Assembly (NCBI RefSeq): GCF_001854805.1
Contig: NZ_MBLO01000259.1
Span: 1 to 64,000, forward strand
From: Pseudofrankia coriaricola
Lineage (GTDB): Bacteria; Actinomycetota; Actinomycetes; Frankiales; Frankiaceae
Direction of reading: 5' to 3'
Length of the DNA: 64,000 nucleotides
Part shown: piece by piece, positions 23,008 through 40,520 of the stretch
How the letters are laid out: each line of letters opens with the position of its first letter
Position numbering within the stretch: position 1 is the stretch's first letter
Translations under genes and position numbers: made by a program
The notes under the pieces: model-generated
Database searches by the model: none
The model's input: only the letters and a program-made list of their open reading frames with translations
What the model was told of the DNA's origin: nothing

Positions 23008-26000
23008 TCAGGAGAACAGGCGGTCGTTGTAACGGGGCTGAGGAATGGGATAGCCGGCGTCGTCGAGATCTGGTGGGGCGAAGCGCTCGGCGACGGCGGC
23101 GGCGAGCTCCTGGTAGGCGCGGCGCGTCTCCCGCTTCAGCTCGTGCAGGTCGATCCGCCCGCCGGTGGCCAGGTGCGGGTCCCATGGCACGCGCACCACC
23201 CGGCGAGTGCGCGCGGCGAAGTGCTGCTCGAGCGAGTCGACGTCCACCCCGTCGCCGTTCTGCGGGAACATCGAGATCACCGCGACCGCGTCACGGACCC
23301 GGTCGGCGTAGCCGTGCGCGTCCAGCCAGTCCAGCGTGGCGCTGGCGGACGTCCCGCCGTCGGCGCTGGAGCTCGTCACGATGACCAGCGTGTCGGCGAG
23401 CCCGAGCACGCCGCCCATGGCGCTGTGCAGCATGCCGGTGCCGCAGTCAGTCAACAGGATCGAGTAGTAGCGCTGCAGCAGATTGTCGACAGCGCGGTAG
23501 TCCGAGTCGGCGAACGCCTCGGAGATCTCGGGATCGTCCGCCGAGGCCAGCACGTCCAACCGCGAGTCCGAGCGGGCCATGTACTGACGGATGTCGACGT
23601 AGCGATGCAGCCCGGGGGCGTGCTCGAGCAGGTCGCGAACGGTGTACGGAGAGGGCCGTTGCACCTTTGTTCCCAGGGTGCCGCGGTCCGGGTTGGCGTC
23701 GATCGCCACGACCCGGTCGTCGCGCAGGTCGGCGAGCGTGGAACCGAGGCCGATCGTGGTCGTCGTCTTGCCGACGCCGCCCTTGAGCGACATCACGGCG
23801 ATCCGGTGGCAGTCGATCAGCGACGTCCGGATATGCGCGAGCAGCCGATTGTGCCGAGCCTCGTCGGGCGACGGCCCGGGGTTCACCGCGCCGCCGGACA
23901 TCTGGTAGACGACCTTGCGCCAGCCTCGGGCCGCCGTCTCCTGGGACGGCCCCAGCAGGGCGTCGCTGTAGAGCGCCGCCCCGGGGTGCCCGGTACCGTG
24001 CCGGACGCCCGTCCGGCTGGACACGTCGTCGGCGGCGGGTCCGCCCACGTTCCCCGAGCCGTCCGGCATGTTCCGCCGCCGGGGCGGCGAGTAGGGCGCC
24101 CCGATGTCGTCCCTGGCCTCCCGGCCCTCTCTGGCGTCGCGGCCGTCCCTGGCCTCCCGGCCCTCTCTGGCGTCGCGGCCGTCCCTGGCCTCCCGGCCGT
24201 CCCTGACGTCGCGGCCGTCCCTGACGTCGCGGCCGTCCCTGACGTCGCGGCCGTCCCTGACGTCGCGGCCGTCCCTGACGTCGCGGCCGTCCCTGGCGTC
24301 GCGGCCGTCCCTGGCGTCGCGGCCGTCACGGATCGGGCGGCCGCCGCGGTTGTCCGCCGGCGCCGCGCCGGGCCGGCGCCCCGCGACGTCGAACTGGTCC
24401 CACGATTCGCGCTGGCCGGGCTGAACCCGGCCGAGGCCTGGCTGAAGGGAGGCCACCGCCCGGCCCGCCTCCGGGTAGCCCGAAGGCTCGTGACCCACCG
24501 GCGGAGGGCCGGGCGGCGGCCGGCGCCTCCCGCCGTCGCCCCCGGGGGGCGGGGCCACCGGCGGCCGTGGCGGTGCCACCAAGCCGGCGGCGGCCGCGGT
24601 GGGCGGCGGCTGCGCGCCGGGCGGGGCCATGCCCGGTGACGGGGGCGGCGGCTGGGGGAGCGGGCTCGGTGCTGGTGCTGGGAACTGCGTCGACGGTTGG
24701 AAGCCGGGCGCCTGGTCGTGCAGCGGGGCGAAGGCGACCGGCGCGCCGGGGACGCTCACCGGCGAGCCGCCCGGCGCGCCAGGAGGCGCCGGCGGCCGCG
24801 GTGGGTAGCCCTGGCCCGCCGGCCCATGTGGGCTGGGCGGGACACCAGCGATCCCCGGCTGGGCGCCTGGCGCGCCCGCGCCCGGACGGCCGCCGGCGAT
24901 GGTCGCACCCGCGGCGCCATACGGGCCGCCCGGCGCCTGGCCGACCGGGAAATCGTCGAACAGTGGGTCGAACGCCTGGGTCGGCAGGCCGGCCGAGGCC
25001 GGGCGCTCACCGGGCCCCGGGCGGCCGGCACCGGAACCGGCGCGGTCGCGGCCCGGACTGGCGGGCGGCCTTCCCGCCCTGTCGGCCGAGCCTTCCACCA
25101 CCCACGGCCCAGCGGCTGGTTGGGGGCGGACGGACGAGCCGGCGTCACCGCCAACGGCGATGCCACCAACGGCGATGCCACCAACCTGGCCCCCGACGCC
25201 CTGGCCAGGCCCACCACCGTGCACCAGACCGGCGCCGTGACCCGGCCCGGCCCGGTTGCCCCGCGCGGCTCCGTTGCCCAGTCCGGCGACGGAGCCCAGC
25301 CCGGGCCCACGGCCGGCGTTGGAGCCGCCGTCCACACTCATCCCCGGGCCGGCGCCCACGCGCCGCCCGTCATCCGCGCCACCGAAGACGATCGGGCCGC
25401 CGGGCTGTGGCGATCCGCCACCGGGACCATCGCCGCGCCCACCGGCTGAGACATCCCAGCCGCGCGGGCGAGCCGGCGGCTCGCCAGGAAACTGGCCGGC
25501 GGGCCCGCCGCCGTGCGGCTGGCTCGCGAGCGGCGGCCCGGACGCCGGCCGGCTGCCTGGCGGCGCAGGTGGCACGCCGGGGGGTGAGAAGGCACCGGCC
25601 TGCCGGGGGGGGCGCGGCCGGGAAGGCGCGTTGGGGTCCTCCACGGCGAGGCCGGTCGGCCAGGACGGATGCCCCGGCGCGTAGGGAACACCGCGACCAG
25701 CGGCCGCCTCCCGCGCCGGCTCACGCGTGCCGGCGGGCCCCCGCCCACCGAGCACGAACGGGTCGCGCGCGGCGACGCCGAACGGGTCGGCGGGCGCCGG
25801 CGCCGCCTCGACCCTGGCGGACGACGGGTCTCGGCCCGCGACACGGTCGGCCGGGCCAGCGGGCCTCGCGGCGGGACGGCCTGGCGGTGTGCCGGGAACT
25901 GGCGGTGTGCCGGGAAAAGGGTGCGCCGCGTGGTCCAGCTGCCAGTCCTCGACGCGCCCGTCCACGCTGAATGACCCACCGGGGCCCGATGCCGGCACGC

Positions 26001-27180
26001 CCCGGTAGGGCGACGCCTGGCCAGGCGCGGCGCGCGGCGGGACGGCCGGCCGCGGTGGCGGCGCGGCATGGATGGACGGATGGTCCGGAGCTCCGACCGA
26101 CCACCCATCGGGCATCGGCCTTGGTGGCCCACTCGGCATCGCCCCCGCGTCGACGGTGAAGCCAGCGAGCGGATCGGGCCGTTGCCCCCGCCCAGCCCCG
26201 TTCGGGCTGCCGGCCGCGGGGCCACCGGGCGGCGGGAAACCAGGGCCGGCCGGAGCCGGCGGACCAGACGCGCCAGCCGTGCCGGCCTGGGCCGCGGCCC
26301 AGGGGTCGGGGCGCCAGCGGGGGGTGCCCGCCGGCGGGGCGGGCGGATGGCCGGGCATCCTGGAGCCCGCGTCGAGATCGATGGGGCCCTGTCCGGACGC
26401 CATCGGGGCAGCCGCCGAGCCAGGCACGAACGCAGGTCGCGCGCCACCCGCGGACGGGAACGGCGCGGGGGGAAGCGATGACGGCCGCGGCGATGACGGC
26501 GGCGGGCCGGGCCGCGAGCCGCGAGGGGGCGCACCCCTGGCCTCGTCGGCCGCCGGCCGCCAGCCGGCGGCCCCGGCGCCACCAGATCCGTTCAGCGCCC
26601 CCGGTCCGGGTGGGCCGCCGACACCGCCCGGAGCACCGAACCCGCGCGGATCACCATGCCCATCCGGGGCACCGAATCCGTTCGGGGCGCCGTGACCGTG
26701 CGACGCGTCGAATCCGTTCGGAGCGTCGAAAGTGCTGGGGGCGCCGAACCCGCCATGCCCGCCCGGCGCCGCCGGTGCCTGCCCGAAGGCGGCGTGCGAC
26801 GACGGCCACCGCCCGTCCGGGGCGCCGCCAGGCGCGACCGGGCCGGGACCGGCCGGCGCGCCGTACCGCGGGTTCTCTCCGCCGGGCGGCGGAACCGGTG
26901 GGGGCGGCGGAGGCTGGCCCGGCAAGCCCACGCCCGGCAGGCGTCCGGCCGGGCGGGTCCCCGGAGGGCCGTCGGCGCCATACGCGCCGGCAACGCCGGT
27001 TTCTTGCCCACCAATGGGCTCGCCGGCGGCGGCTCGGCCCAGGTATCCGTCGGCGAAGGGCAGCGCCGTGGGGTCGAGACGGTTCGCGCCCGCGGGCGCC
27101 CTGGCGACGTCCACGCGCGGCTGACCGGCGTACCGGGAGGGATACCCGTCGCCGGCGTCGAAGTCCGCGTCGCTCCTCAT
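23008..27180 (-). CDS. Giant Pro/Gly-rich MinD/ParA-like ATPase
   Basis: A 1391-residue protein. Residues 1 to about 1090 are Pro/Gly/Ala-rich, with a Asp/Arg/Gly repeat tract at about 950-1025, and are almost certainly disordered. The C-terminal 300 residues are a MinD/ParA-type P-loop ATPase: IAVMSLKGGVGKTTTTIGLG (deviant Walker A), VVAIDANPDRGTLGTKV (switch I) and ILLTDCGTGMLHSAMGG (Walker B region). The domain order matches EspI-like and SCO5717-like actinobacterial proteins, some associated with type VII secretion. No ESX gene is visible here, so a partner system is unknown. I use the ATG at 27180; a GTG at 27216 is in frame but has no ribosome-binding site. Confidence 0.85.
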   Translation of the reverse strand: MRSDADFDAGDGYPSRYAGQPRVDVARAPAGANRLDPTALPFADGYLGRAAAGEPIGGQETGVAGAYGADGPPGTRPAGRLPGVGLPGQPPPPPPVPPPGGENPRYGAPAGPGPVAPGGAPDGRWPSSHAAFGQAPAAPGGHGGFGAPSTFDAPNGFDASHGHGAPNGFGAPDGHGDPRGFGAPGGVGGPPGPGALNGSGGAGAAGWRPAADEARGAPPRGSRPGPPPSSPRPSSLPPAPFPSAGGARPAFVPGSAAAPMASGQGPIDLDAGSRMPGHPPAPPAGTPRWRPDPWAAAQAGTAGASGPPAPAGPGFPPPGGPAAGSPNGAGRGQRPDPLAGFTVDAGAMPSGPPRPMPDGWSVGAPDHPSIHAAPPPRPAVPPRAAPGQASPYRGVPASGPGGSFSVDGRVEDWQLDHAAHPFPGTPPVPGTPPGRPAARPAGPADRVAGRDPSSARVEAAPAPADPFGVAARDPFVLGGRGPAGTREPAREAAAGRGVPYAPGHPSWPTGLAVEDPNAPSRPRPPRQAGAFSPPGVPPAPPGSRPASGPPLASQPHGGGPAGQFPGEPPARPRGWDVSAGGRGDGPGGGSPQPGGPIVFGGADDGRRVGAGPGMSVDGGSNAGRGPGLGSVAGLGNGAARGNRAGPGHGAGLVHGGGPGQGVGGQVGGIAVGGIAVGGDAGSSVRPQPAAGPWVVEGSADRAGRPPASPGRDRAGSGAGRPGPGERPASAGLPTQAFDPLFDDFPVGQAPGGPYGAAGATIAGGRPGAGAPGAQPGIAGVPPSPHGPAGQGYPPRPPAPPGAPGGSPVSVPGAPVAFAPLHDQAPGFQPSTQFPAPAPSPLPQPPPPSPGMAPPGAQPPPTAAAAGLVAPPRPPVAPPPGGDGGRRRPPPGPPPVGHEPSGYPEAGRAVASLQPGLGRVQPGQRESWDQFDVAGRRPGAAPADNRGGRPIRDGRDARDGRDARDGRDVRDGRDVRDGRDVRDGRDVRDGRDVRDGREARDGRDAREGREARDGRDAREGREARDDIGAPYSPPRRRNMPDGSGNVGGPAADDVSSRTGVRHGTGHPGAALYSDALLGPSQETAARGWRKVVYQMSGGAVNPGPSPDEARHNRLLAHIRTSLIDCHRIAVMSLKGGVGKTTTTIGLGSTLADLRDDRVVAIDANPDRGTLGTKVQRPSPYTVRDLLEHAPGLHRYVDIRQYMARSDSRLDVLASADDPEISEAFADSDYRAVDNLLQRYYSILLTDCGTGMLHSAMGGVLGLADTLVIVTSSSADGGTSASATLDWLDAHGYADRVRDAVAVISMFPQNGDGVDVDSLEQHFAARTRRVVRVPWDPHLATGGRIDLHELKRETRRAYQELAAAVAERFAPPDLDDAGYPIPQPRYNDRLFS
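24112..24332. repeat. 18-bp in-frame tandem repeat inside the MinD-like gene
   Basis: About twelve consecutive 18-bp units of the form CGGCCGTCCCTGACGTCG (plus strand) encode the six-residue pattern DGRDVR and variants (DGRDAR, EGREAR). Five central units are identical, while flanking units differ in one or two bases, the classic pattern of recent slippage expansion. Every unit keeps the reading frame. Confidence 0.9.
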
Positions 27181-27559
27181 GATCCCGCCCGGTCCGCCCC
27201 GCCATGGGCGGGACACTCACGATCCGGCCTGGCGCCCGCTCGGTCCACAGGAACCCCTTCCGTCGGGGGCTGGACACACCGAGGACTAGAACACCGGTGG
27301 GCTAGCCCATGGCGCGGAAATGGCCAAAGATCACTATAAGCACCCACCCCATAGTCCCATGCCACACTCTGGTCGGCCTACCCGAGGGGCTTAGCTCGCC
27401 TCGGTTGCGGTCACGGTTGCGGCTTCGCCTTGCCCAGCGCCCCCACACCTTCTCACGGCTCACCCATGCCCACCCGGCCGTGGAGATCACCACCAGCCCG
27501 CCCCGCGCCAGCGCCGAGCCACAGCGCGGCCGGCGCGGGGCCAGGTCGGGCAGCGCCGG
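27181..27559. other. 379-bp intergenic region upstream of the MinD-like gene
   Basis: No gene. An AT-richer patch at 27325-27362 contains TATAGT on the minus strand (27334-27339), a plausible -10 element about 155 bp upstream of the MinD-like start. No clear -35 is seen. Pyrimidine-rich sequence follows to the end of larC. Confidence 0.35.
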
Positions 27560-29122
27560 TCAGGTCGGTGCGGGGCCGCCGTCGGCGGGCTCGGAGACGC
27601 CCGACCACTCGCCGCGGTGCGCGAGCGCGTTCGCCGCCGCGAGCACTCGGCGGGCAGGCCAGCCGAGCTGATCCGCGACCAGCGCCACGTCCTCCCACTC
27701 GGGCTGGGCCACGCCTCCGGCACCCCGGTCACCGGCGTCCTGGTCCCCGGCACCGTGGTCCCCGGCGCGGGCGCTGGGGAGACCGGGCGAGACCTTGACC
27801 CGGATCGGGTGGCCGGCGACCTCGACCACACGCACGCCGCGGGCCAGCGCGCGCTTGCGCACCGCCGTCTCGCGCAGCCCCAGGGTCGAGGTATGCGCGA
27901 AGACGGCGGCCCGCACGGCGGGCGCGGCCGCGAGGGGCACCAGTGCGCGCAGGGTGTGCGCCGGGCGGCCCTTCTTCATCAGGATCGGAGTGAGCCACGC
28001 GTCCACGGCGCCCGCCGCGAGCAGCGCCGCGAGCACCGACGGCCATACCCGCGGGTCGAGATCGTCGACGTTGGCCTCGAGCACCAGTTCGTCGGTCGCG
28101 ACGAGATCGCCCGGCTCGCCGGGTCCGCCGGGCTCGCCGGGTCCGCCGGGCTCGCCCAGTCCTCCGGGCTCGCCCAGTCCTCCGGGTCCGCCGTGGTCGG
28201 CGATCTCGGCGGCCTGGTCTGTCAGCTCGGGCGCCGGAACGGTATAGCCGCCATGATCGTGGCCGCCACGCGAGTGGCCATCATGATCGTGACCATCATG
28301 CGAGTGGCCGTCATGCGCCCGACCAGCGGATGGCGGCACCATGGGCGCGGCGGAGGAGGCGCCGCCCCGCCGGCCACGGCCGCCGTCCGCGTCCTCGAGC
28401 GCCTCACCGACGACGACACGGACGATGTTGGGGCGGCCGGGCAGGTCCCGGGTGCCGGCCCCCGCGCCGACGGCGGTGACACGCAGCGGCGGCAGGTAGC
28501 CGTAGCCGGTCGCCGCCGTGACGACGATGGCGGCGCCGGTCGGCGTGCACAGCTCGACCTGGGCCGGGCCGCCGGCGGCCGGCGCGCCGGCGGCTCGCAG
28601 CAGCTCCAGCACGGCCGGCACGGGAACCGGCAGCACGCCGTGCGCCGTCGCGGCCCGCCCACCGCCGAGCGCGACCGGAGTGGCCACCAGCTCGTCCAGC
28701 CCGAGGTGGGCGAGGCCGGCACTCGCGCCCACCACGTCGGCGATGGCGTCCAGCGCGCCGACCTCGTGGAAGTGGACCTCGTCCGGCGCGATTCCATGCA
28801 CCCGTGCCTCGGCCGCCGCGAGCGCGGCGAAGATGGCCGTCGCGCGGTCCCTGACCGGCTCGGCCAGGGGCGCGCCGGCGAGCAGCGCGCGGATGTCGGC
28901 CCAGGTGCGGACGGTGTCGCCCGGGGGCACGACGACGTCGATCTTGGTCGCGGCGAGGCCCGCGCGCCGTACCTGGCGAACCTCGAACCGGACGGGCAGC
29001 CCCAGCGTGTCGACGGCGGCGGCGATGACGTCGAGCGGCACCCCGGCACCGACCAGGGCGCCCAGCAGCATGTCGCCGCTCGCGCCGCAGGACAGGTCCA
29101 GCCAGCCAACCCGCCGCGTCAC
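27560..29122 (-). CDS. larC: LarC, nickel-pincer cofactor nickel insertase
   Basis: A 520-residue LarC (DUF111). It inserts nickel into the bis-thiocarboxylated pyridinium mononucleotide in a CTP-dependent step, giving the nickel-pincer nucleotide cofactor of lactate racemase and relatives. Seen: WLDLSCGASGDMLLGALVGA at the N-terminus, PDEVHFHEVGALDAIADVVG, ELCTPTGAAIVVTAATGYG, then the second-half motif ANVDDLDPRVWPSVL. In Lactiplantibacillus plantarum the two halves are joined by a programmed frameshift; here they are fused in one frame. Between them lies an insert of about 65 residues: a His/Asp-rich stretch (about 267-292) and GEPGG repeats (about 305-332), making the protein roughly 100 residues longer than usual. 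GTG start; overlaps larB by 4 bp. Confidence 0.95.
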   Translation of the reverse strand: MTRRVGWLDLSCGASGDMLLGALVGAGVPLDVIAAAVDTLGLPVRFEVRQVRRAGLAATKIDVVVPPGDTVRTWADIRALLAGAPLAEPVRDRATAIFAALAAAEARVHGIAPDEVHFHEVGALDAIADVVGASAGLAHLGLDELVATPVALGGGRAATAHGVLPVPVPAVLELLRAAGAPAAGGPAQVELCTPTGAAIVVTAATGYGYLPPLRVTAVGAGAGTRDLPGRPNIVRVVVGEALEDADGGRGRRGGASSAAPMVPPSAGRAHDGHSHDGHDHDGHSRGGHDHGGYTVPAPELTDQAAEIADHGGPGGLGEPGGLGEPGGPGEPGGPGEPGDLVATDELVLEANVDDLDPRVWPSVLAALLAAGAVDAWLTPILMKKGRPAHTLRALVPLAAAPAVRAAVFAHTSTLGLRETAVRKRALARGVRVVEVAGHPIRVKVSPGLPSARAGDHGAGDQDAGDRGAGGVAQPEWEDVALVADQLGWPARRVLAAANALAHRGEWSGVSEPADGGPAPT

Positions 29123-30033
29123 CGCGGTCCGATCGGGCCCACCGGCACCGCGACGGCGGCGGCCGTGCCCTCCGGCTCGTTACCGTCACCGGCGGCATCG
29201 ACGCCGGCGGTATCAGCGCCGGCAGCGGTGACGGCGGTCGCGGCGCGGGCGACGGCGGCGGCGCGGGCGACGCGGGCGGCGAACAGGCCGGCGCCGAAGC
29301 CGTTGTCGATGTTGCAGACGGCGATCCCCGGCGCGCATGCGGTCAGCATCCCGAGCAGCGCCGCGATCCCGCCGAACGCGGCGCCGTACCCGACGCTGGT
29401 GGGAACGGCGATGAGTGGCACCCCGACCAGGCCGCCGATGACGCTGGGCAGGGCACCTTCCATCCCGGCGACCACCACGAGGCAGTCGGCGCTCGCGAGC
29501 ACGTCGCGCACCGCGAGCAGCCGGTGCAGCCCGGCCACGCCGACGTCGCGCAGCGTCTCGACACCCGCGCCGCTGGCCGCGGCCGTCAGGGCGGCCTCGT
29601 CGGCGACCGGAGCGTCGGAGGTGCCCGCGCAGACGACGACGACCCGGCCGCGCGCCGGCGGGAACTGGCCGACGGCGACGCTCGTGAGCGGGCGGGCCGT
29701 GTCGGTCGCCGTGGCGTCCGGCCAGCGGGCGAGCAGAGCGTCGACCGTCTCCCTGCCGGCCCTGGTGACCAGGGTGGGCCGGCCGTCACCGCTCGCCGCG
29801 CGCAGCGCGGTCACGATCCCGACCGTCTCGGTCGCCGTCTTGCCGGCCGCGTAGACGACCTCCGGGTCGCCGGTGCGCACGCCGCGGTGGGTGTCGACCC
29901 GCGCGTACCCAAGATCGACAAAACCTGCGCCGTCGCCGAGCGGCCCGGCCGCGAGCCGGGCCATCGCCTCGTCCGTGTCGACCCGCCCGGCGGCCACCTC
30001 GGTCAACAGCGTGCGCAGCTGCTCTGTGTCCAT
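29119..30033 (-). CDS. larB: LarB, pyridinium-3,5-biscarboxylic acid mononucleotide synthase
   Basis: A 304-residue LarB, the enzyme that carboxylates and hydrolyses nicotinic acid adenine dinucleotide in the first step of nickel-pincer cofactor synthesis. The N-terminal helical part includes DLGYARVDTHRGVRTGDPEVVYAAGKT. The C-terminal half is a PurE-like (AIR carboxylase) domain: VVCAGTSDAPVADEAALTA, DVGVAGLHRLL, CLVVVAGMEGALPSVIGGLV and AVCNIDNGFGAGLFAARVAR. An Ala-rich tail follows. The ATG at 30033 is chosen because conserved MDTEQLRTLL starts there and GGAGGTGAG lies about 12 bases upstream; a GTG at 30048 is an alternative. It is translationally coupled to larC, and the LarE step is encoded at 38900-40327. 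Confidence 0.94.
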   Translation of the reverse strand: MDTEQLRTLLTEVAAGRVDTDEAMARLAAGPLGDGAGFVDLGYARVDTHRGVRTGDPEVVYAAGKTATETVGIVTALRAASGDGRPTLVTRAGRETVDALLARWPDATATDTARPLTSVAVGQFPPARGRVVVVCAGTSDAPVADEAALTAAASGAGVETLRDVGVAGLHRLLAVRDVLASADCLVVVAGMEGALPSVIGGLVGVPLIAVPTSVGYGAAFGGIAALLGMLTACAPGIAVCNIDNGFGAGLFAARVARAAAVARAATAVTAAGADTAGVDAAGDGNEPEGTAAAVAVPVGPIGPR

Positions 30034-33666: not shown

Positions 33667-35226
33667 GTGGACGACGTGACAGGCGCTGACAACCAGGCAA
33701 GCGCACCCCCGGCGACGCCGGAGGTGGTTTCGGCTACACCTGAGACCGCGCCGCCGGATATGTCGGACGCAACCGGGGCGCCAGACCCCGCTGCCGACGA
33801 GGAGGCCCCGGGCACACTCACCGATGAGGCCACCAAGGCGGCCGCTCCCTCGGCCTCGTCTGCTGAGGCACCGACGGGGGATCCCTCGGTTCCCGAGGCC
33901 CCGGCCGTTGAGCCCCCTGCCCTGGAAGCCCTACCGGTCGAGCAGCCAACCGCCGACCAGGCTCCGGCTGAGTGGGACACGCGGCCAGCCGGGACGCCGC
34001 CGGAGCTGGCCGCCTCCGCGGCGGCCACCGAGGCCGCTGAGGCCGCCGCGCGGCCCGAGCCGGTCGCGGCGGCCACCATCGAACCCGGGCCGGAACCGGC
34101 CCCCGCGCCGACGGCCGAGCCCGAAGCACTGCCCGAGCCCGCAACGGTCCCGGAGACGGCAACGGTCCCGGCGACGGCAACGCTGCCCGAGACCGCAACG
34201 CCGGCTGGATCCGCAACGCTGCCCGAGACCGCAACGGTGTCCGGATCTGTACCGGTGCCCCAGCCGACCGCCAAGGCCTCCACGGAACCCGAGACGGCCG
34301 CGCTGGCCGGACCGGAGTCGGCCACCGAGACCGAGACCCGGGCGGCGGTGGACGACGACGAGACGGTCGACGAAGGGGGCCGCGGTCGCGCGGTGCGGGC
34401 CGTCCGGGGGCCCGACCCGGTCTGCGCGGCCGCGGTCGACGTCGCGCGCGAGGCAGCCATCGAGGAGGCCGGCGGCGCGGACGCGGTCGGCGAGCACCTC
34501 GGCGTCGAGGCCGAGGGCGAACGGCTCGCGCTGCACCGGTTCGCCTGCCTGACGCCCGCATACCGGGGCTGGGTATGGGCCGTCGTCACCGCGAGGGCGC
34601 CGCGGGTCCGCAGGGTGACCATCGACGACGTGGTCCTGATGCCCGGCGAGGGCGCGCTGCTCGCGCCGCCCTGGGTGCCGTGGTCGCAGCGGCTGCGCCC
34701 GGGTGACGTCGGCGTCGGGGATCTGCTGCCGACCGCCGTCGATGACCCTCGTCTGGCGCTGCGCCGCAGCGATGTCGAGGAGTTCGCCGACACTGACGCC
34801 TTCCTGGAGCTCGGCCTCGGCCGGCCGCGGGTGCTGTCCATCTTCGGTCGCGAGGAGGCCAGCACGCGTTGGTACGCCGGGGATCCCGGCCCGGACGCGC
34901 ATGTGGCGAAGGTCGCCCCGGCGACCTGCCTTACCTGCGGCTTCCACGTCCGGTTGGCCGGCGGGCTCGGCCGCCTGTTCGGCGTATGCGCCAACGAGCT
35001 GGCGCCGGACGACGCCAAGGTGACCTCCATCGACCACGGCTGCGGCGCCCACTCCGAGGCCTTGGTCGCGCCCTCGGCGCATCCCGAGCCGGTTCCCTTC
35101 GACGAGGACCCCTCCGACCTGGAGCCCACGGACGTCGAACTGGTCGGCGCGGCGGCGGGTGGCGCAGGCCAGGACGCCGCCGGCGCCGGCCATGGTGGCC
35201 GCCCGGAGCCCTACGGTCACGCCTGA
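33667..35226 (+). CDS. DUF3027 family protein
   Basis: A 519-residue protein. The first ~235 residues are Pro/Ala/Glu/Thr-rich low complexity (long ATVPETATVP-like runs). The DUF3027 domain starts at PVCAAAVDVAREAAIEEAG and includes RFACLTPAYRGWVWAVVTAR, PPWVPWSQRLRPGDVGVGDLLPT and RWYAGDPGP. A zinc-knuckle-like CLTCGFHVRLAGGLGRLFGVC and DHGCGAHSE near the C-terminus may bind metal. The role is unknown; it is a conserved actinobacterial gene near cold-shock genes. GTG start at 33667. Repeat R2a begins three bases after its stop codon. Confidence 0.87.
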   Translation: MDDVTGADNQASAPPATPEVVSATPETAPPDMSDATGAPDPAADEEAPGTLTDEATKAAAPSASSAEAPTGDPSVPEAPAVEPPALEALPVEQPTADQAPAEWDTRPAGTPPELAASAAATEAAEAAARPEPVAAATIEPGPEPAPAPTAEPEALPEPATVPETATVPATATLPETATPAGSATLPETATVSGSVPVPQPTAKASTEPETAALAGPESATETETRAAVDDDETVDEGGRGRAVRAVRGPDPVCAAAVDVAREAAIEEAGGADAVGEHLGVEAEGERLALHRFACLTPAYRGWVWAVVTARAPRVRRVTIDDVVLMPGEGALLAPPWVPWSQRLRPGDVGVGDLLPTAVDDPRLALRRSDVEEFADTDAFLELGLGRPRVLSIFGREEASTRWYAGDPGPDAHVAKVAPATCLTCGFHVRLAGGLGRLFGVCANELAPDDAKVTSIDHGCGAHSEALVAPSAHPEPVPFDEDPSDLEPTDVELVGAAAGGAGQDAAGAGHGGRPEPYGHA

Positions 35227-35535: not shown

Positions 35536-35963
35536 GCAGTCCACGATCGCCCGCCCGAAACCGGACCTCTGCCTCGGCGACATGACCGCTGCCGCGATTC
35601 GAACGGGCGGTGACGACGTGTTCGGGCAGGCGGGCGACCTGTGCGGGTGACGATTCGGGAGCCGGTGGGCGCCCCGCACCCCGCCACGCACCGTCGACGG
35701 CGATGCTAAGGTCCGTCAGCAAAGTCCTGTTTGCCCTCCTTGGAAACCCCGTGCTGTCACCGCGCCGTCCGACACGGTGGCGCTTCCCGGCGGGTCTGCT
35801 GATTCCTTCGATGGCGCACGGAACCGACCATCGGGCACCAGGCGGGCCCCGGACCGCGAAGGAACCTGACAGGACAGGGCCGACTACATGCTCAAAGCGT
35901 AACAATAGTGCAACGCAACGTAACAGCGATACGAAAGCCAGGAACCATGCCTCGGACACGCCG
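35536..35963. other. 428-bp leader region of mqnB
   Basis: No gene. It holds an AT-richer A-rich patch at 35895-35945 (GCGTAACAATAGTGCAACGC, then GTAACAGCGATACG) in which GTAACA is repeated; this is a plausible promoter or operator zone about 30-60 bp upstream of mqnB, but no -35/-10 pair is assigned. Confidence 0.4.
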
Positions 35964-36869
35964 ATGAGCCGCACCTTGATCGTCACCGCTGTGCAGGCGG
36001 AGGCGGACGCGGTGTGCGCGGGCCTGATGGGTAGCTGGTCGCGCTCCCGCGGACGTTCCACCGAGGCGCCGAGCGCGCCCGTCTCGCCCGACTGGGACCG
36101 CCAGCTTCTGACCACGTCCACTCTCGGCCCCTACGTCGGGCGCCGCCGCGGCCCGGTGACGGTGCTCGCCGCCGGCACCGGCGGGCCCGCGGCCGCGGCC
36201 GGCACGGCGGTGGCGCTCGCCGTCGCGCAGGCGGCGGGCGACCCGTTCACCCTCGTGCTGTCGATGGGGGTCGCCGGCGGGTTTCGTGGCTGGGCCGAGA
36301 TCGGCGATCTGGTGGTCGCCGGGCGGCTCGTCGCCGCCGATCTGGGCGCCGAATCCGGCCTCGACGACCTGCGCGAGCCGCAGGGCCAGATCCACGAGAT
36401 GGACCGCAGCCTCGGCTTCCACAGCACCGGCGCGCCACCGCTGCCACGCACCACCAGCTCGTCCATCGACGGCAAGTTCCTCACCCTGGATGACCTCGGC
36501 CTCGGCTCTTCCACGATCGTCCCGGATCCCGAGCTGGTGGAACGGCTGCGCACGGTGCTCGGGCTGACCGGACGGCGGGTGGCCACCGGCCCGGTGCTCA
36601 CCGTCGCCACCGTCACCGGCACCGAACTGCGCGCGGCAACCCTGACCGCCCGCCTCGACCCGGTCGCGGAGGGGATGGAGGGCTACGCGGTCGGCGTCGC
36701 CGCCGCGGCCTTCGGGGTGCCCGTCAGCGAGATCCGCGCGATCAGCAACCAGGTGGGCCGGCGCGACCGGAGCAGTTGGAACATGCCGGGCGCGCTCGCC
36801 AGCCTGCGCACCGCGGCGGGCGCCCTGGTCGCCCACCCCGAGGGCCTGCTTCAGCCGCTGCGCACCTGA
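35964..36869 (+). CDS. mqnB: Futalosine hydrolase (futalosine menaquinone pathway)
   Basis: A 301-residue nucleoside-phosphorylase-fold protein. MSRTLIVTAVQAEADAV opens the fold, VLAAGTGGPAAAAGTAVALA is the glycine-rich nucleoside-binding loop, and LVLSMGVAGGFRG and MEGYAVGVAAAAFGVPVSEIRAISNQVGRRD contain the substrate-binding Met-Glu and catalytic Asp regions. MqnB removes hypoxanthine from futalosine to give dehypoxanthine futalosine, the alternative route to menaquinone. Adjacency to mqnD strengthens the call. Two internal low-complexity inserts (about 25-45 and 140-165) make it longer than many relatives. ATG at 35964. An R2 element follows the stop and separates it from mqnD by 110 bp. 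Confidence 0.93.
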   Translation: MSRTLIVTAVQAEADAVCAGLMGSWSRSRGRSTEAPSAPVSPDWDRQLLTTSTLGPYVGRRRGPVTVLAAGTGGPAAAAGTAVALAVAQAAGDPFTLVLSMGVAGGFRGWAEIGDLVVAGRLVAADLGAESGLDDLREPQGQIHEMDRSLGFHSTGAPPLPRTTSSSIDGKFLTLDDLGLGSSTIVPDPELVERLRTVLGLTGRRVATGPVLTVATVTGTELRAATLTARLDPVAEGMEGYAVGVAAAAFGVPVSEIRAISNQVGRRDRSSWNMPGALASLRTAAGALVAHPEGLLQPLRT

Positions 36870-36872
36870 CTG

Positions 36873-36970
36873 GTTTCTTGGTTCGGCTCCGTCCGGGCGG
36901 CGCGCGGAGGTCCCGTGGGAGCGAAGCGAGTACGGGGCCGGAGCGCCGCGCCCGGACGGAGCGAACCAAA
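36873..36970 (+). repeat. Fold-back R2 element (copy b) between mqnB and mqnD
   Basis: A ~95-bp element with long inverted ends: the left end TTGGTTCGGCTCCGTCCGGG matches the reverse complement of the right end CCCGGACGGAGCGAACCAA except for one extra G, and pairing continues into GGCGCG. Between them lies GAGCGAAGCGAGTACGGGGC. The layout resembles a miniature inverted-repeat element without visible target-site duplication. It begins three to four bases after the mqnB stop. Confidence 0.75.
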
Positions 36971-36979
36971 ATAAACAGC

Positions 36980-37903
36980 ATGACGGCAACCGAGGTGACC
37001 CAGCCCAACACGACCGCCGAGCCTCAGGGCATGGCGCCGCTGAGTCTGGCGATCTCGCCGTGCCCGAACGACACATTCGTGTTCCACGCGCTGGCGCACG
37101 GTCTGGTGGCGGGAACGCCACCTGTGTCGGTGACGTTTGCCGACATCGACGTGCTCAACACCCGGGCGGCCGACGGCCTGGACCATCTGGTGAAGGTTTC
37201 CTATGCCGCGCTGCCGTGGCTGCTCGACGGCTACCGGCTCCTGCCGTCGGGCGGTGCGCTCGGCCGTGGCTGCGGCCCGCTGGTCCTCATGGCCCCCGGC
37301 CGCGCCGCCGGCGGCGACCCGGGCGGTGACCGGACACCGGGCGCCACGGGGCCGGGGATCCTGCGTGGCGCGAGGGTCGCCATCCCCGGCATCCGCACCA
37401 CCGCATACCTGCTGTTCCGGCTGTGGGCGGCCGGCGTCGACGTCGCCTCGATCGACGTGCTCCCGTTCGATCAGATCATGCCCGCGGTCCGTGACGGCCG
37501 CTACGACGCGGGCCTGGTGATCCACGAGTCCCGGTTCACCTATCCGTCCTACGGACTGGTCTCGGTGGCCGACCTCGGCGACTGGTGGGAGGGAACCACC
37601 GGCCTGCCGATCCCGCTCGGCGCGATCCTCGCCCGCCGGGATCTGCCGGCCGGCGCCGGCGACCTGGGCGCCGCCGTCAGGGACAGCGTCGCGGCCGCCT
37701 TCGCCGACCGGACGGCGTCCGCCGACTGGGTGCTCGCGCACTCCCAGGAACTGGCGCCGGAGGTCGCCGAGGCGCACATCAACCTCTACGTCAACGACTT
37801 CAGCCTCGACCTCGGTGACGAGGGCTACGCCGCCGTCGAGGAGCTCCTCGGCCGCGCCGCCGCCGAAGACCTCGTCCCCCGCCTCTCCACCCCCCTACGC
37901 TGA
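36980..37903 (+). CDS. mqnD: 1,4-dihydroxy-6-naphthoate synthase (futalosine pathway)
   Basis: A 307-residue MqnD, the lyase-type enzyme that converts cyclic dehypoxanthine futalosine to 1,4-dihydroxy-6-naphthoate. LAISPCPNDTFVFHALAHG is the family's hallmark N-terminal motif, followed by DIDVLNTRAADGLDHLVKVS, LGRGCGPLVL, VAIPGIRTTAYLLFRLW, DAGLVIHESRFTYPSYGL and DLGDWWEGTTGLPIPLGAIL with the catalytic His-containing HESRFTY segment. ATG at 36980; an internal ATG at 37031 also lies just before the conserved core. The ribosome-binding site is poor because the R2 repeat ends about 10 bases upstream, so translation may depend on that structure. mqnA, mqnC and mqnE are not in the window. Confidence 0.95.
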   Translation: MTATEVTQPNTTAEPQGMAPLSLAISPCPNDTFVFHALAHGLVAGTPPVSVTFADIDVLNTRAADGLDHLVKVSYAALPWLLDGYRLLPSGGALGRGCGPLVLMAPGRAAGGDPGGDRTPGATGPGILRGARVAIPGIRTTAYLLFRLWAAGVDVASIDVLPFDQIMPAVRDGRYDAGLVIHESRFTYPSYGLVSVADLGDWWEGTTGLPIPLGAILARRDLPAGAGDLGAAVRDSVAAAFADRTASADWVLAHSQELAPEVAEAHINLYVNDFSLDLGDEGYAAVEELLGRAAAEDLVPRLSTPLR

Positions 37904-38269: not shown

Positions 38270-38665
38270 CTAGGCTTCGAACTCGCTGGCTACGGCGTGG
38301 ACGACCTTGGCGACGCGCTGGGCGACGCGGCGGTCGGGGTAGCGACCGCGTCGCAAATCACGCTGGACCTCGTCGAGCATCTTGATCATGTCCTCGACCA
38401 TGCTGTGCAGCTCGTCCGGGCTACGCCGGGCGGCCTGTGCCGCCGCCTTCGCGACCGACGGGGGCGCGGCGAGCACCCGGACGGACAGGGCCTGGTCGCC
38501 TTTGCGGCCGGCGGCGATGCCGAACTCGACGCGGTCGCCCGCGCGGAGCTTCTCGACACCGGGTGGAAGAGCCTCCTTGTGGACGAACACGTCGCCGCCG
38601 TCGTCACGGCTTAGAAAGCCAAATCCCTTGTCGACGTCATACCACTTGACCTTGCCGGTGGGCAC
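38270..38665 (-). CDS. Cold-shock domain protein with C-terminal helical extension
   Basis: A 131-residue protein. Residues 1-65 form a cold-shock domain with RNP1 [11 protein letters not shown] and RNP2 DVFVHKEAL, so it should bind single-stranded nucleic acid. Residues 70-131 add an Ala/Arg-rich helical tail ([44 protein letters not shown]). This longer type corresponds to mycobacterial CspB-like proteins rather than the 67-residue CspA. GTG at 38665 is chosen: the domain starts two residues later and GAGG lies about 7 bases upstream. A hairpin (38705-38743) lies in its upstream region. Confidence 0.92.
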
Positions 38666-38704
38666 GGGCGACCTCGTTCTGCGACACGACGGGATGGAAC
38701 AGGG

Positions 38705-38743
38705 CCAAAGAAGGCGCGGCCACACGTACTTGGCCGCGCCTTC
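38705..38743 (-). terminator. 12-bp stem terminator between larE and the cold-shock gene
   Basis: GAAGGCGCGGCC (38710-38721) and GGCCGCGCCTTC (38732-38743) are perfect inverted repeats with a 10-base loop. On the minus strand the stem is followed by TTTGG. It can end the upstream HAD-LarE transcript, or act as an attenuator in the cold-shock leader, 45 bases before that start. Confidence 0.65.
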
Positions 38744-38899: not shown

Positions 38900-40327
38900 T
38901 CAGGAAAGTAGCTCGTTCATCGCGCCGGAACGGAAGCCACGCCGGTCGACCTCGACGGCGGGGAAACCCTCCACGACGGCGACCAGGTCCGGCCGGTCGG
39001 CGAGCACCGCCACCAGCCCGGCGTCCACCTCGATCCGCGCGCGATCGCCCAGGTCGCGCACCCGCAGGTCGCGGACGTCGAGCCCGGCCTCCGCCAGCGC
39101 GTGCCGCAGCGCCCCCTCGGCCCGCTCGACCCGCTCGAGCCTGCGGGGCGTCACCTCGATGCCATAGGCGATCCGGCTGGCGAGGCAGGCGGCGGCCGGC
39201 TTGTCAGCGGTGACGAGCCCGAGCCGGCGCGAGGCGGCACGCACCTGGCGCTTCGTCAGACCGGCGTCGAGCAGCGGGGTGGCGGCCCCGCGCTCGGCCG
39301 CCGCCCGGATGCCGGGGCGGAACCCGGCGACGGCGTCGTCGGCGTTGGTCCCGGTGACGACATGCGCGAGGCCCAGCTCGGCCGCGAACGGCAGGAGAGT
39401 CTCGGTGAGCTCCGCCTTGCAGAAGTAGCACCGGTCGGCACCGTTCGCCCGGTAGCCGGGCCGGGACTGCTCGTCGGTCGCGGGCAGTACGTGGCGCACG
39501 CCCAGGTCGCTGGCGAGCGCGCGCGCGCCGGCGAGCTCCGCCGCTGGCAGCGACGGCGAGACGGCGGTCGCCGCGACGACGGCGTCCGGACCGAGCGTGC
39601 GCGCCGCCCACGCGAGCAGGAAGGCGGAGTCGGCGCCGCCGGAGAAGGCTACGAGTACCGAGCCAAGGTCGGTCAGCCGCGCGGACAGGTCCGCGAGCCG
39701 CCGGTCGAGCACGGTGTCGGCCAGCCAGTCGGGAAACTCGGCGAGCGCGCCCAGCACCACGTCGGCGCCCGCGGCCGCGAGGGCGGCCGCGTCGTGCGGC
39801 CCAGTTGTCAGCCCGATGGCCAGCGCGCCACCGGCTCGAGCCCCGATCATGTCGCCCTCATGGTCGCCGACGAAGATGTTGACGCCGTATTCGCGGATCG
39901 CGTCACCCTTGGCGGTGGCATACCGGTTACCGACGACGACGTCCGGCTCGATGCCGATCGCCGCGAGACTGGCGCGTGCCTGCGGCTCGTTCTTGGCGGT
40001 GACCACGACCATCCGGCCGCCCTCCCGGCGCACCGCCTCAACGGCTTCCCTGGCGCCAGGCATCCGCTCGGAGACCGGGACAGCGTGCACCGTGTACAGC
40101 TCGCGGTACAGCGCGGCGGCCGCGGCGACCTCGCCGGGCGGGAACCAGTTCGCGAGCTCGTCCTCCAGCGGCGGCCCCAGCCGGCTGACGGCCAGCTCCC
40201 CGTCGACCGCGACGCCCGTACGCGCCGAGAGCTCGACGAATGTCGCCACGATGCCGCGGCGCGCGTCCAACAGCGTCAGGTCGAGGTCGAACCCGACAAC
40301 CAGCGAAGAAGAAGCACCGTCTGACAC
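38900..40327 (-). CDS. larE: HAD hydrolase-LarE fusion (sulfur transferase for nickel-pincer cofactor)
   Basis: A 475-residue two-domain protein. Residues 1 to about 205 are a HAD phosphatase: VVGFDLDLTLLDA (motif I, nucleophile Asp), VVVTAKNEPQ (motif II region) and NIFVGDHEGDMIGARAGG (motif IV). Residues about 210-475 are LarE, an ATP-dependent sulfur transferase acting on the LarB product: PP-loop VLVAFSGGADSAFLLAW (about 222-238), RCYFCKAELTE (about 299-303), VVTGTNADDAVAGFRPG, and KPAAACLASRIAYG (Cys about 380, the position of the sacrificial Cys in single-Cys LarE). Having the CxxC plus this Cys resembles the iron-sulfur LarE subtype; that is inferred. GTG at 40327 is placed just before the HAD motif; the ribosome-binding site is weak. 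larB/larC are 9 kb away. Confidence 0.88.
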   Translation of the reverse strand: MSDGASSSLVVGFDLDLTLLDARRGIVATFVELSARTGVAVDGELAVSRLGPPLEDELANWFPPGEVAAAAALYRELYTVHAVPVSERMPGAREAVEAVRREGGRMVVVTAKNEPQARASLAAIGIEPDVVVGNRYATAKGDAIREYGVNIFVGDHEGDMIGARAGGALAIGLTTGPHDAAALAAAGADVVLGALAEFPDWLADTVLDRRLADLSARLTDLGSVLVAFSGGADSAFLLAWAARTLGPDAVVAATAVSPSLPAAELAGARALASDLGVRHVLPATDEQSRPGYRANGADRCYFCKAELTETLLPFAAELGLAHVVTGTNADDAVAGFRPGIRAAAERGAATPLLDAGLTKRQVRAASRRLGLVTADKPAAACLASRIAYGIEVTPRRLERVERAEGALRHALAEAGLDVRDLRVRDLGDRARIEVDAGLVAVLADRPDLVAVVEGFPAVEVDRRGFRSGAMNELLS

Positions 40328-40385
40328 CCCCTGAGCGTAACGACCGCTCTCCTCGGTCCGACCTGTTCGATGCGGCGGCGGGCGC

Positions 40386-40520
40386 TGGACGCGCCGCCCG
40401 CCGTCGGACGCTGAGCGTCCTCCCAGCGTGGTGCCGGGCACAGGCGTATGGCCGTGGTTCAGGTGGTGCCAGGTTGAGGACGTAGCTGGGTTGACGCAGC
40501 GCTAATGGCGCTGTCACGTT
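40386..40520. repeat. Dispersed mosaic repeat R1, copy D (inverted orientation)
   Basis: Read on the minus strand: GTGACAGCGCCATTAGCGC, then CAACCTGGCACCACCTGAAC, ACGGCCATACGCCTG, CCCGGCACCACGCTGGGAGG and GGACGCTCAGCGTCC. The last palindrome reads GGGCGCTCAGCGCCC in copies A and C, so both arms changed together. It occupies most of the 263-bp gap between the kinase gene and the HAD-LarE gene. Confidence 0.65.

Follow-up and report, generated by a model that had tools for sequence, protein, structure and literature searches.

A HAD phosphatase joined to LarE in actinobacteria: a widespread fusion protein whose two activities are probably separable

Introduction

The closest described relatives of the protein analysed here are LarE enzymes, which act in the synthesis of the nickel-pincer nucleotide (NPN). 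In the available text of PMC11796402, LarE adenylylates P2CMN with release of pyrophosphate (PPi), two sulfur insertions take place, and both PPi and AMP are released. In LarE of Thermotoga maritima, three cysteines, Cys92, Cys96 (C95 in the primers of that paper) and Cys172, hold a [4Fe-4S] cluster that is required for sulfur transfer (PMC9283937, available text). The enzyme of Lactobacillus plantarum (PDB 5udq, 5udt, 6b2o) differs in that it uses a single sacrificial cysteine, Cys176.

In this work we analysed a 64,000-nucleotide stretch of Pseudofrankia coriaricola DNA (the window), in which one gene encodes a LarE preceded by a HAD phosphatase domain. We know of no HAD domain in T. maritima LarE. 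Members of the HAD superfamily are Asp-based magnesium phosphohydrolases, and promiscuity is common among those of this class. Among the matches listed by literature searches, no title or abstract start describes a HAD-LarE protein, most subscription papers lying outside the scope of these searches. In the available text of the papers that use the word, 'fusion' refers to StrepTag fusions, and the word 'phosphatase' is absent from that of PMC9283937 and PMC11796402. The architecture is apparently undescribed so far, as a sequence-only reading of the window had supposed. That reading took the two domains to be complete and suggested that the phosphatase might serve the Lar pathway; its account of the protein stood, the fusion being genuine and the HAD catalytic residues conserved in relatives, and its account of what the phosphatase does was not supported.

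Results

The fusion gene and its copies

The gene lies in a minus-strand open frame that spans 38900..40441 including the stop codon, of which the portion with homologues begins at about the GTG at 40327 (Table 1). One copy was found in the genome (search at E 0.001; 11.2 Mb, 280 contigs), which is Pseudofrankia-like: the nearest named relative, at 92% identity, is Pseudofrankia asymbiotica. The HAD-LarE fusion is real and widespread. When named relatives were scanned with one genome per species and the best 80 of 311 loci were kept, it was present as one ORF in 38 of them (L033-L070, with L064 cut by a contig end), and among 216 class genomes it was recovered again in 30, in a single frame in 29 and divided over two contigs in the remaining one (G091). 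A frameshift or an assembly error, which would have joined two separate genes, is thereby ruled out.

Table 1. Features of the window referred to in the text, with positions in the window
Feature	Position	Strand	Characteristics
HAD-LarE fusion gene	38900..40327	-	GTG start at 40327; 475 aa + stop codon; single frame
HAD phosphatase domain, residues 1-203	39719..40327	-	PF12710/PF13419; D14, D16, T18, T110, K140, D155, D159
Junction helix, residues 195-221	39665..39745	-	AlphaFold2 model; blocks of ten, mean pLDDT 92-98
LarE domain, residues 207-475	38903..39709	-	TIGR00268; PP-loop SGGADS 229-234, Cys300, Cys303, Cys381
Cold-shock-domain gene	38270..38725	-	usual neighbour of HAD and/or LarE
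mqnD-like gene of conserved block	36776..37903	+	PF02621 221 bits
mqnB, futalosine hydrolase, of conserved block	35610..36869	+	TIGR03664 247.8 bits, cut-off 124.7
DUF3027 gene of conserved block	33667..35226	+	PF11228 261.8 bits
larB	29263..29898	-	NF033503 LarB 250 bits, cut-off 175
larC (LarC1 + LarC2 parts)	27560..29122	-	TIGR00299 197 bits (cut-off 90); NF052512 110 bits (cut-off 50)

The HAD half

Residues 11-146 match Pfam HAD (PF12710) with 49.2 bits (cut-off 27), and residues 13-169 match HAD_2 (PF13419) with 43 bits (cut-off 23.8). Motif I (D14-D16-T18), motif II (T110), motif III (K140) and an acidic motif IV (D155 and D159) are all present, and we take the catalytic roles of these seven residues from general HAD enzymology. 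D14, D16, T18, K140, D155 and D159 occur in 76 of 76 fused rows of our alignments and in all HAD-only rows that are not gapped at these positions (28/28 or 30/30), while residue 110 is a Thr in 72 of the 76 and a Ser in the other 4; the 76 fused, 61 LarE-only and 30 HAD-only rows draw on two sources and contain genes that recur in both, the distinct proteins being 56 fused and 27 HAD-only. The catalytic residues have thus not been lost in fused or stand-alone relatives, a loss that would have undermined the phosphatase read from the sequence. In six pairs, dN/dS by simple Nei-Gojobori counting is 0.18-0.32 for the HAD half and 0.16-0.26 for the LarE half: both are under purifying selection. 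That the joined frame is an artefact or its HAD a dead remnant found no support for the window gene, and given the single frames in many relatives, the kept catalytic residues and the dN/dS of the HAD half, we regard it as exceedingly improbable and discard the dead remnant for this gene.

The best profile matches of the HAD domain are phosphoglycolate phosphatase/PpaX-like HADs (TIGR01449, PRK13288; PDB 3mc1, 2ah5, 6f2x). The window HAD reaches 39-44 bits with TIGR01449 against a cut-off of 180, far enough below it to place the domain outside any named family, and 25.7-29.3 bits with PpaX (PRK13288) against a cut-off of 218. Weak matches to the PpaX pyrophosphatase were seen in 26 of 27 HAD rows (best E 1.1e-11) and to an inorganic diphosphatase model in 22 of 27. 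No position sharply distinguishes fused from stand-alone HADs, the largest difference in residue frequency being 0.64, and the best 50 Foldseek matches listed for the predicted structure were all LarE, with no HAD structural neighbour among them.

The LarE half and the Lar pathway

Residues 212-471 match TIGR00268 with 268.3 bits (cut-off 150) over model positions 4-259 of 259, so that, with the HAD profiles matched, both domains are complete, as had been claimed. L. plantarum LarE, which has the family and fold in common with this half, aligns with residues 209-474 (phmmer, best E 3e-29) and ranks first among the Foldseek matches (TM 0.84 by target length). In the SGGxDS PP-loop, S229, G231, D233 and S234 are present in 76 of 76 fused rows and G230 in 75, and C300, C303 and C381 are present in 76/76 fused and 61/61 LarE-only rows. 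T. maritima LarE likewise has a PP-loop and three cysteines, which lie in the corresponding motifs RC-x-x-C and ACL, a correspondence drawn through the residues encoded by the primers of the paper rather than a full alignment (PMC9283937, available text). The phmmer column of the L. plantarum Cys176 holds Ala380 in the window protein, adjoining Cys381. The window LarE carries the three cysteines of the [4Fe-4S] type and is probably dependent on such a cluster.

On the strand of the fusion gene, 9 to 11 kb from it, lie larB and larC (Table 1), the latter also matching PF01969 (383.6 bits), and LarA homologues are encoded elsewhere in the genome (two PF09861 matches, contigs C246 and C243). LarB, LarC and LarA homologues thus accompany LarE, the NPN pathway is complete on paper, and this gene content makes it very probable that the LarE half makes NPN. 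Across the class, 16 of 57 LarB-positive genomes have no PF09861 (LarA) match at E 1e-8; they may hold other NPN users, or a LarA too diverged for the search.

The junction

In an AlphaFold2 model built from 34 fused sequences (mean pLDDT 90.6, pTM 0.84), the last helix of HAD and the first of LarE form one unbroken predicted helix (Table 1). The FPxWL-like pattern that closes HAD was located in 54 of the 56 distinct fused proteins; 29 residues separate it from the PP-loop in 53 of these, and the spacing between HAD motif IV and the PP-loop is 73 in 52 of the 56 and 68-71 in the other four.

Fused, separate and single genes across genomes

The fused named relatives belong to Pseudofrankia, Parafrankia, Protofrankia, Actinopolymorpha, Nocardioides, Actinocatenispora, Phytomonospora, Actinorhabdospora, other Frankiaceae and MAGs. 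A fused contig labelled as a Spirochaetaceae MAG (L048) groups among actinobacteria in both of our trees, and its label is probably a binning error. One locus cut by a contig end (L075) was counted as LarE-only, though it is probably fused. In the class survey (n=216, E 1e-15, at most seven candidates scored per genome) we found 30 genomes with the fusion, 6 with both genes separate (three adjacent, three on different contigs), 59 with HAD only, 28 with LarE only and 93 with neither. The database search suggested by the sequence-only reading thus recovered the two-domain architecture widely, in eight families (f1, f9, f14, f20, f22, f26, f28 and f40). In a phylum sample (n=119, mostly outside the class) the only full-length match was the genome of the window itself, LarE alone being common.

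The single states were searched again with one domain at a time, scoring all candidates for the LarE-only set and up to 43 for the HAD-only set. HAD alone gave superfamily-level matches in 7 of 28 LarE-only genomes (31-36% identity), with at most 50 bits vs at least 98 bits for intact lone HADs, and LarE alone gave a weak match of 35 bits in 1 of 59 HAD-only genomes.

LarB over its cut-off was found in 57 of the 216 class genomes, among them 24 of the 30 fused, all six with separate genes and 26 of the 28 LarE-only ones, but none of the 59 HAD-only genomes, one of which (G012) has a partial match under the cut-off. The six fused genomes without LarB are G034, G042, G091, G114, G126 and G136, of which G042 is 98% complete. 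LarB tracks LarE, which is present in 56 of the 57 LarB genomes (Fisher p 8e-42, class n=216), and does not track HAD (30/57 LarB genomes vs 65/159 others, Fisher p=0.16), while HAD and LarE co-occur slightly above chance (36/64 LarE genomes vs 59/152 others, p=0.024), all of these statistics treating genomes as independent, which they are not. Contrasts within a genus or a family are better evidence than these class-wide counts. In genus g44, which sits among named Nocardioides in the HAD tree, LarB is present in 5/5 fused and 0/6 HAD-only genomes, and of the six HAD-only HADs one (G161) is broken and the other five share 72-83% identity with fused Nocardioides HADs. The family of the window shows all three states. 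Pseudofrankia, Parafrankia and some of Protofrankia have the fusion; two genomes of the Protofrankia group (G025 and G026) have LarE only, together with LarB and LarA; and 6/6 sampled genomes of genus g2, which is probably Frankia sensu stricto, have HAD only, none of them with LarB over the cut-off. Four of these six (G001, G003, G007 and G012) have PF09861 matches (E 8.7e-33 to 1.9e-22) and neither LarE nor a LarB over cut-off, which can be read either as a cofactor user without cofactor synthesis or as a changed LarA.

Stand-alone HADs, for instance those of g2 and of f18 and f19 (at a guess Streptomyces and Micromonosporaceae), are 38-68% identical to the window HAD and have the conserved residues in common with it, but are not fused and occur without LarE and without LarB over cut-off. 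We know of no function assigned to this stand-alone actinobacterial HAD. One lone HAD (L114, 7641-8219 in G001) has an in-frame stop, intact copies being present in several related genomes.

Gene neighbourhood and origin of the fusion

A conserved actinobacterial block extends over 19529-42453 of the window and is found at loci L113-L172. By tblastn with the window proteins it comprises WYL helicase, HAD, (LarE), cold-shock protein, (MqnD, MqnB), MFS and DUF3027, some members being absent or relocated in places. The window also carries, at 23008-27216 on the minus strand, an ORF of 1402 aa with a CobQ/MinD/ParA-type match at residues 1138-1225 only. Among the genes searched, the cold-shock gene adjoins the fusion in 20/20 fused loci, the separate genes in 3/3 split loci, LarE in 9/9 LarE-only loci outside lar operons, and HAD in 14/20 HAD-only loci, the other six lying outside the block. 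By this synteny the stand-alone HAD is orthologous to that of the window in 14 of 20 loci, and HAD is a member of an actinobacterial gene block of older date. Fused and split loci alike have LarE between HAD and the cold-shock gene; the order HAD, LarE, cold-shock gene is kept in 20/20 fused loci, on a common strand in 19 of them (L159 differs).

In the three split loci (L133-L135), HAD and LarE are separate neighbouring genes. In the LarE tree they cluster with a fused relative (95% SH-aLRT), in the HAD tree they fall elsewhere, and they may represent either fission or the older state. In these quick trees, which have many open forks, the fused state changes 12 times (LarE) and 8 times (HAD); these changes and the differing placement of the split genomes mean that the trees do not establish a single origin. 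The nearly constant junction length favours one, and a single fusion event appears most likely. Identical rows were dropped from both trees, and L114 was left out of the HAD tree because of gaps and out of alignment A2 because of its in-frame stop. Lenient tblastn at 33 chosen loci, run to find traces of HAD ahead of LarE-only genes or of LarE behind HAD-only genes, gave nothing above 32 bits besides the genes themselves. The partial ranges in G014 (151-474) and G025 (167-474) are not supported by it as HAD remnants, and in G170, where a match had run across three stops, no LarE remnant was seen: HAD ends and the cold-shock gene follows.

Discussion

We propose that the protein is bifunctional and derives from a fusion of neighbouring genes, combining an NPN-making LarE with a HAD still engaged in an older job, on a substrate probably outside the Lar pathway; we consider this proposal as a whole probable. 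Its activities, its cluster and the order and number of its events are what we infer from the intact domains, conserved residues, synteny and co-occurrence described above. The LarE half would adenylylate the LarB product P2CMN with ATP, releasing PPi, and would insert sulfur from a [4Fe-4S] cluster on Cys300, Cys303 and Cys381, after which LarC would insert nickel. The HAD half would be a magnesium phosphohydrolase of HAD subfamily I, with Asp14 as nucleophile and Asp16 as acid/base, and would continue the older role of the actinobacterial HAD encoded ahead of the cold-shock gene. In this scenario larE would have settled between HAD and the cold-shock gene, and its frame would have joined that of HAD, most likely in a single event; where NPN synthesis is absent, lineages would retain HAD only, and others LarE only. 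Since relatives keep either half without the other, HAD probably does a job unrelated to LarE. This is where the sequence-only reading, in which the phosphatase might serve LarB/LarE chemistry, is not supported: HAD is found without LarE or LarB over cut-off in 59 of the 216 class genomes, LarE without HAD in 28, of which 26 have LarB, and the presence of LarB follows LarE (p=8e-42) and not HAD (p=0.16).

The chief rival is a HAD tied to LarE as a pyrophosphatase or clean-up enzyme. An older free HAD would have been recruited to the nickel-pincer pathway in the fused lineages as a built-in helper, for instance by the adenylylation site, where it would hydrolyse the PPi (or AMP) of both adenylylation rounds and pull P2CMN thiolation forward, the rigid helix fixing the distance. 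LarE does release PPi and AMP (PMC11796402, available text), the weak matches of the HAD rows include PpaX and the inorganic diphosphatase model, and the fused form is widely retained. The constant junction length and the single helix predicted across the junction point the same way: a rigid junction with hardly any indels is also what one would expect if selection kept two cooperating sites in a fixed geometry, and HAD may have a LarE-linked role. The repeated separations count against such a helper, LarE doing without HAD in the 28 genomes and HAD persisting in the 59, as do the lack of any residue that sharply splits fused from stand-alone HADs and the PpaX score of 29.3 vs 218 bits; we hold it to be unlikely.

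Less probable still, and quite doubtful in our view, is the damage control proposed earlier, in which HAD would dephosphorylate off-pathway or over-accumulated pyridinium mononucleotides (P2CMN, PCTMN, NaMN). It would be in keeping with the fusion itself, with HAD residues conserved wherever fused and with the promiscuity common in this class, but it meets the same separability of HAD and LarE and the same independence of LarB from HAD, and the activity would also destroy intermediates that LarE must pass on. We give even less credence, and very little, to a fusion that serves co-expression only, the dose of LarE being set by the HAD/cold-shock transcription unit without any catalytic link. 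The gene order and strand kept in the fused loci agree with it, but by sequence it is hard to tell apart from the bifunctional protein with an older HAD that we favour. Against that favoured explanation itself, the retention of the fused form in eight families would be long for a neutral accident, and the slight excess of co-occurrence of HAD and LarE, the 6/30 fused genomes without LarB, the 6/20 HAD-only loci outside the block and the damage to the lone HADs of L114 and G161 may also be counted.

In conclusion, a two-domain LarE, apparently undescribed, is present in eight actinobacterial families of our sample, and the fusion is probably without the functional meaning that made the architecture striking. 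The gains and losses seen in nature suggest that it would be wrong here to infer a shared pathway from the fusion, tempting as this is. The finding also draws attention to a family of actinobacterial phosphatases that awaits characterisation and sits in a conserved neighbourhood, and to actinobacterial LarE enzymes with three cysteines that probably depend on a [4Fe-4S] cluster.
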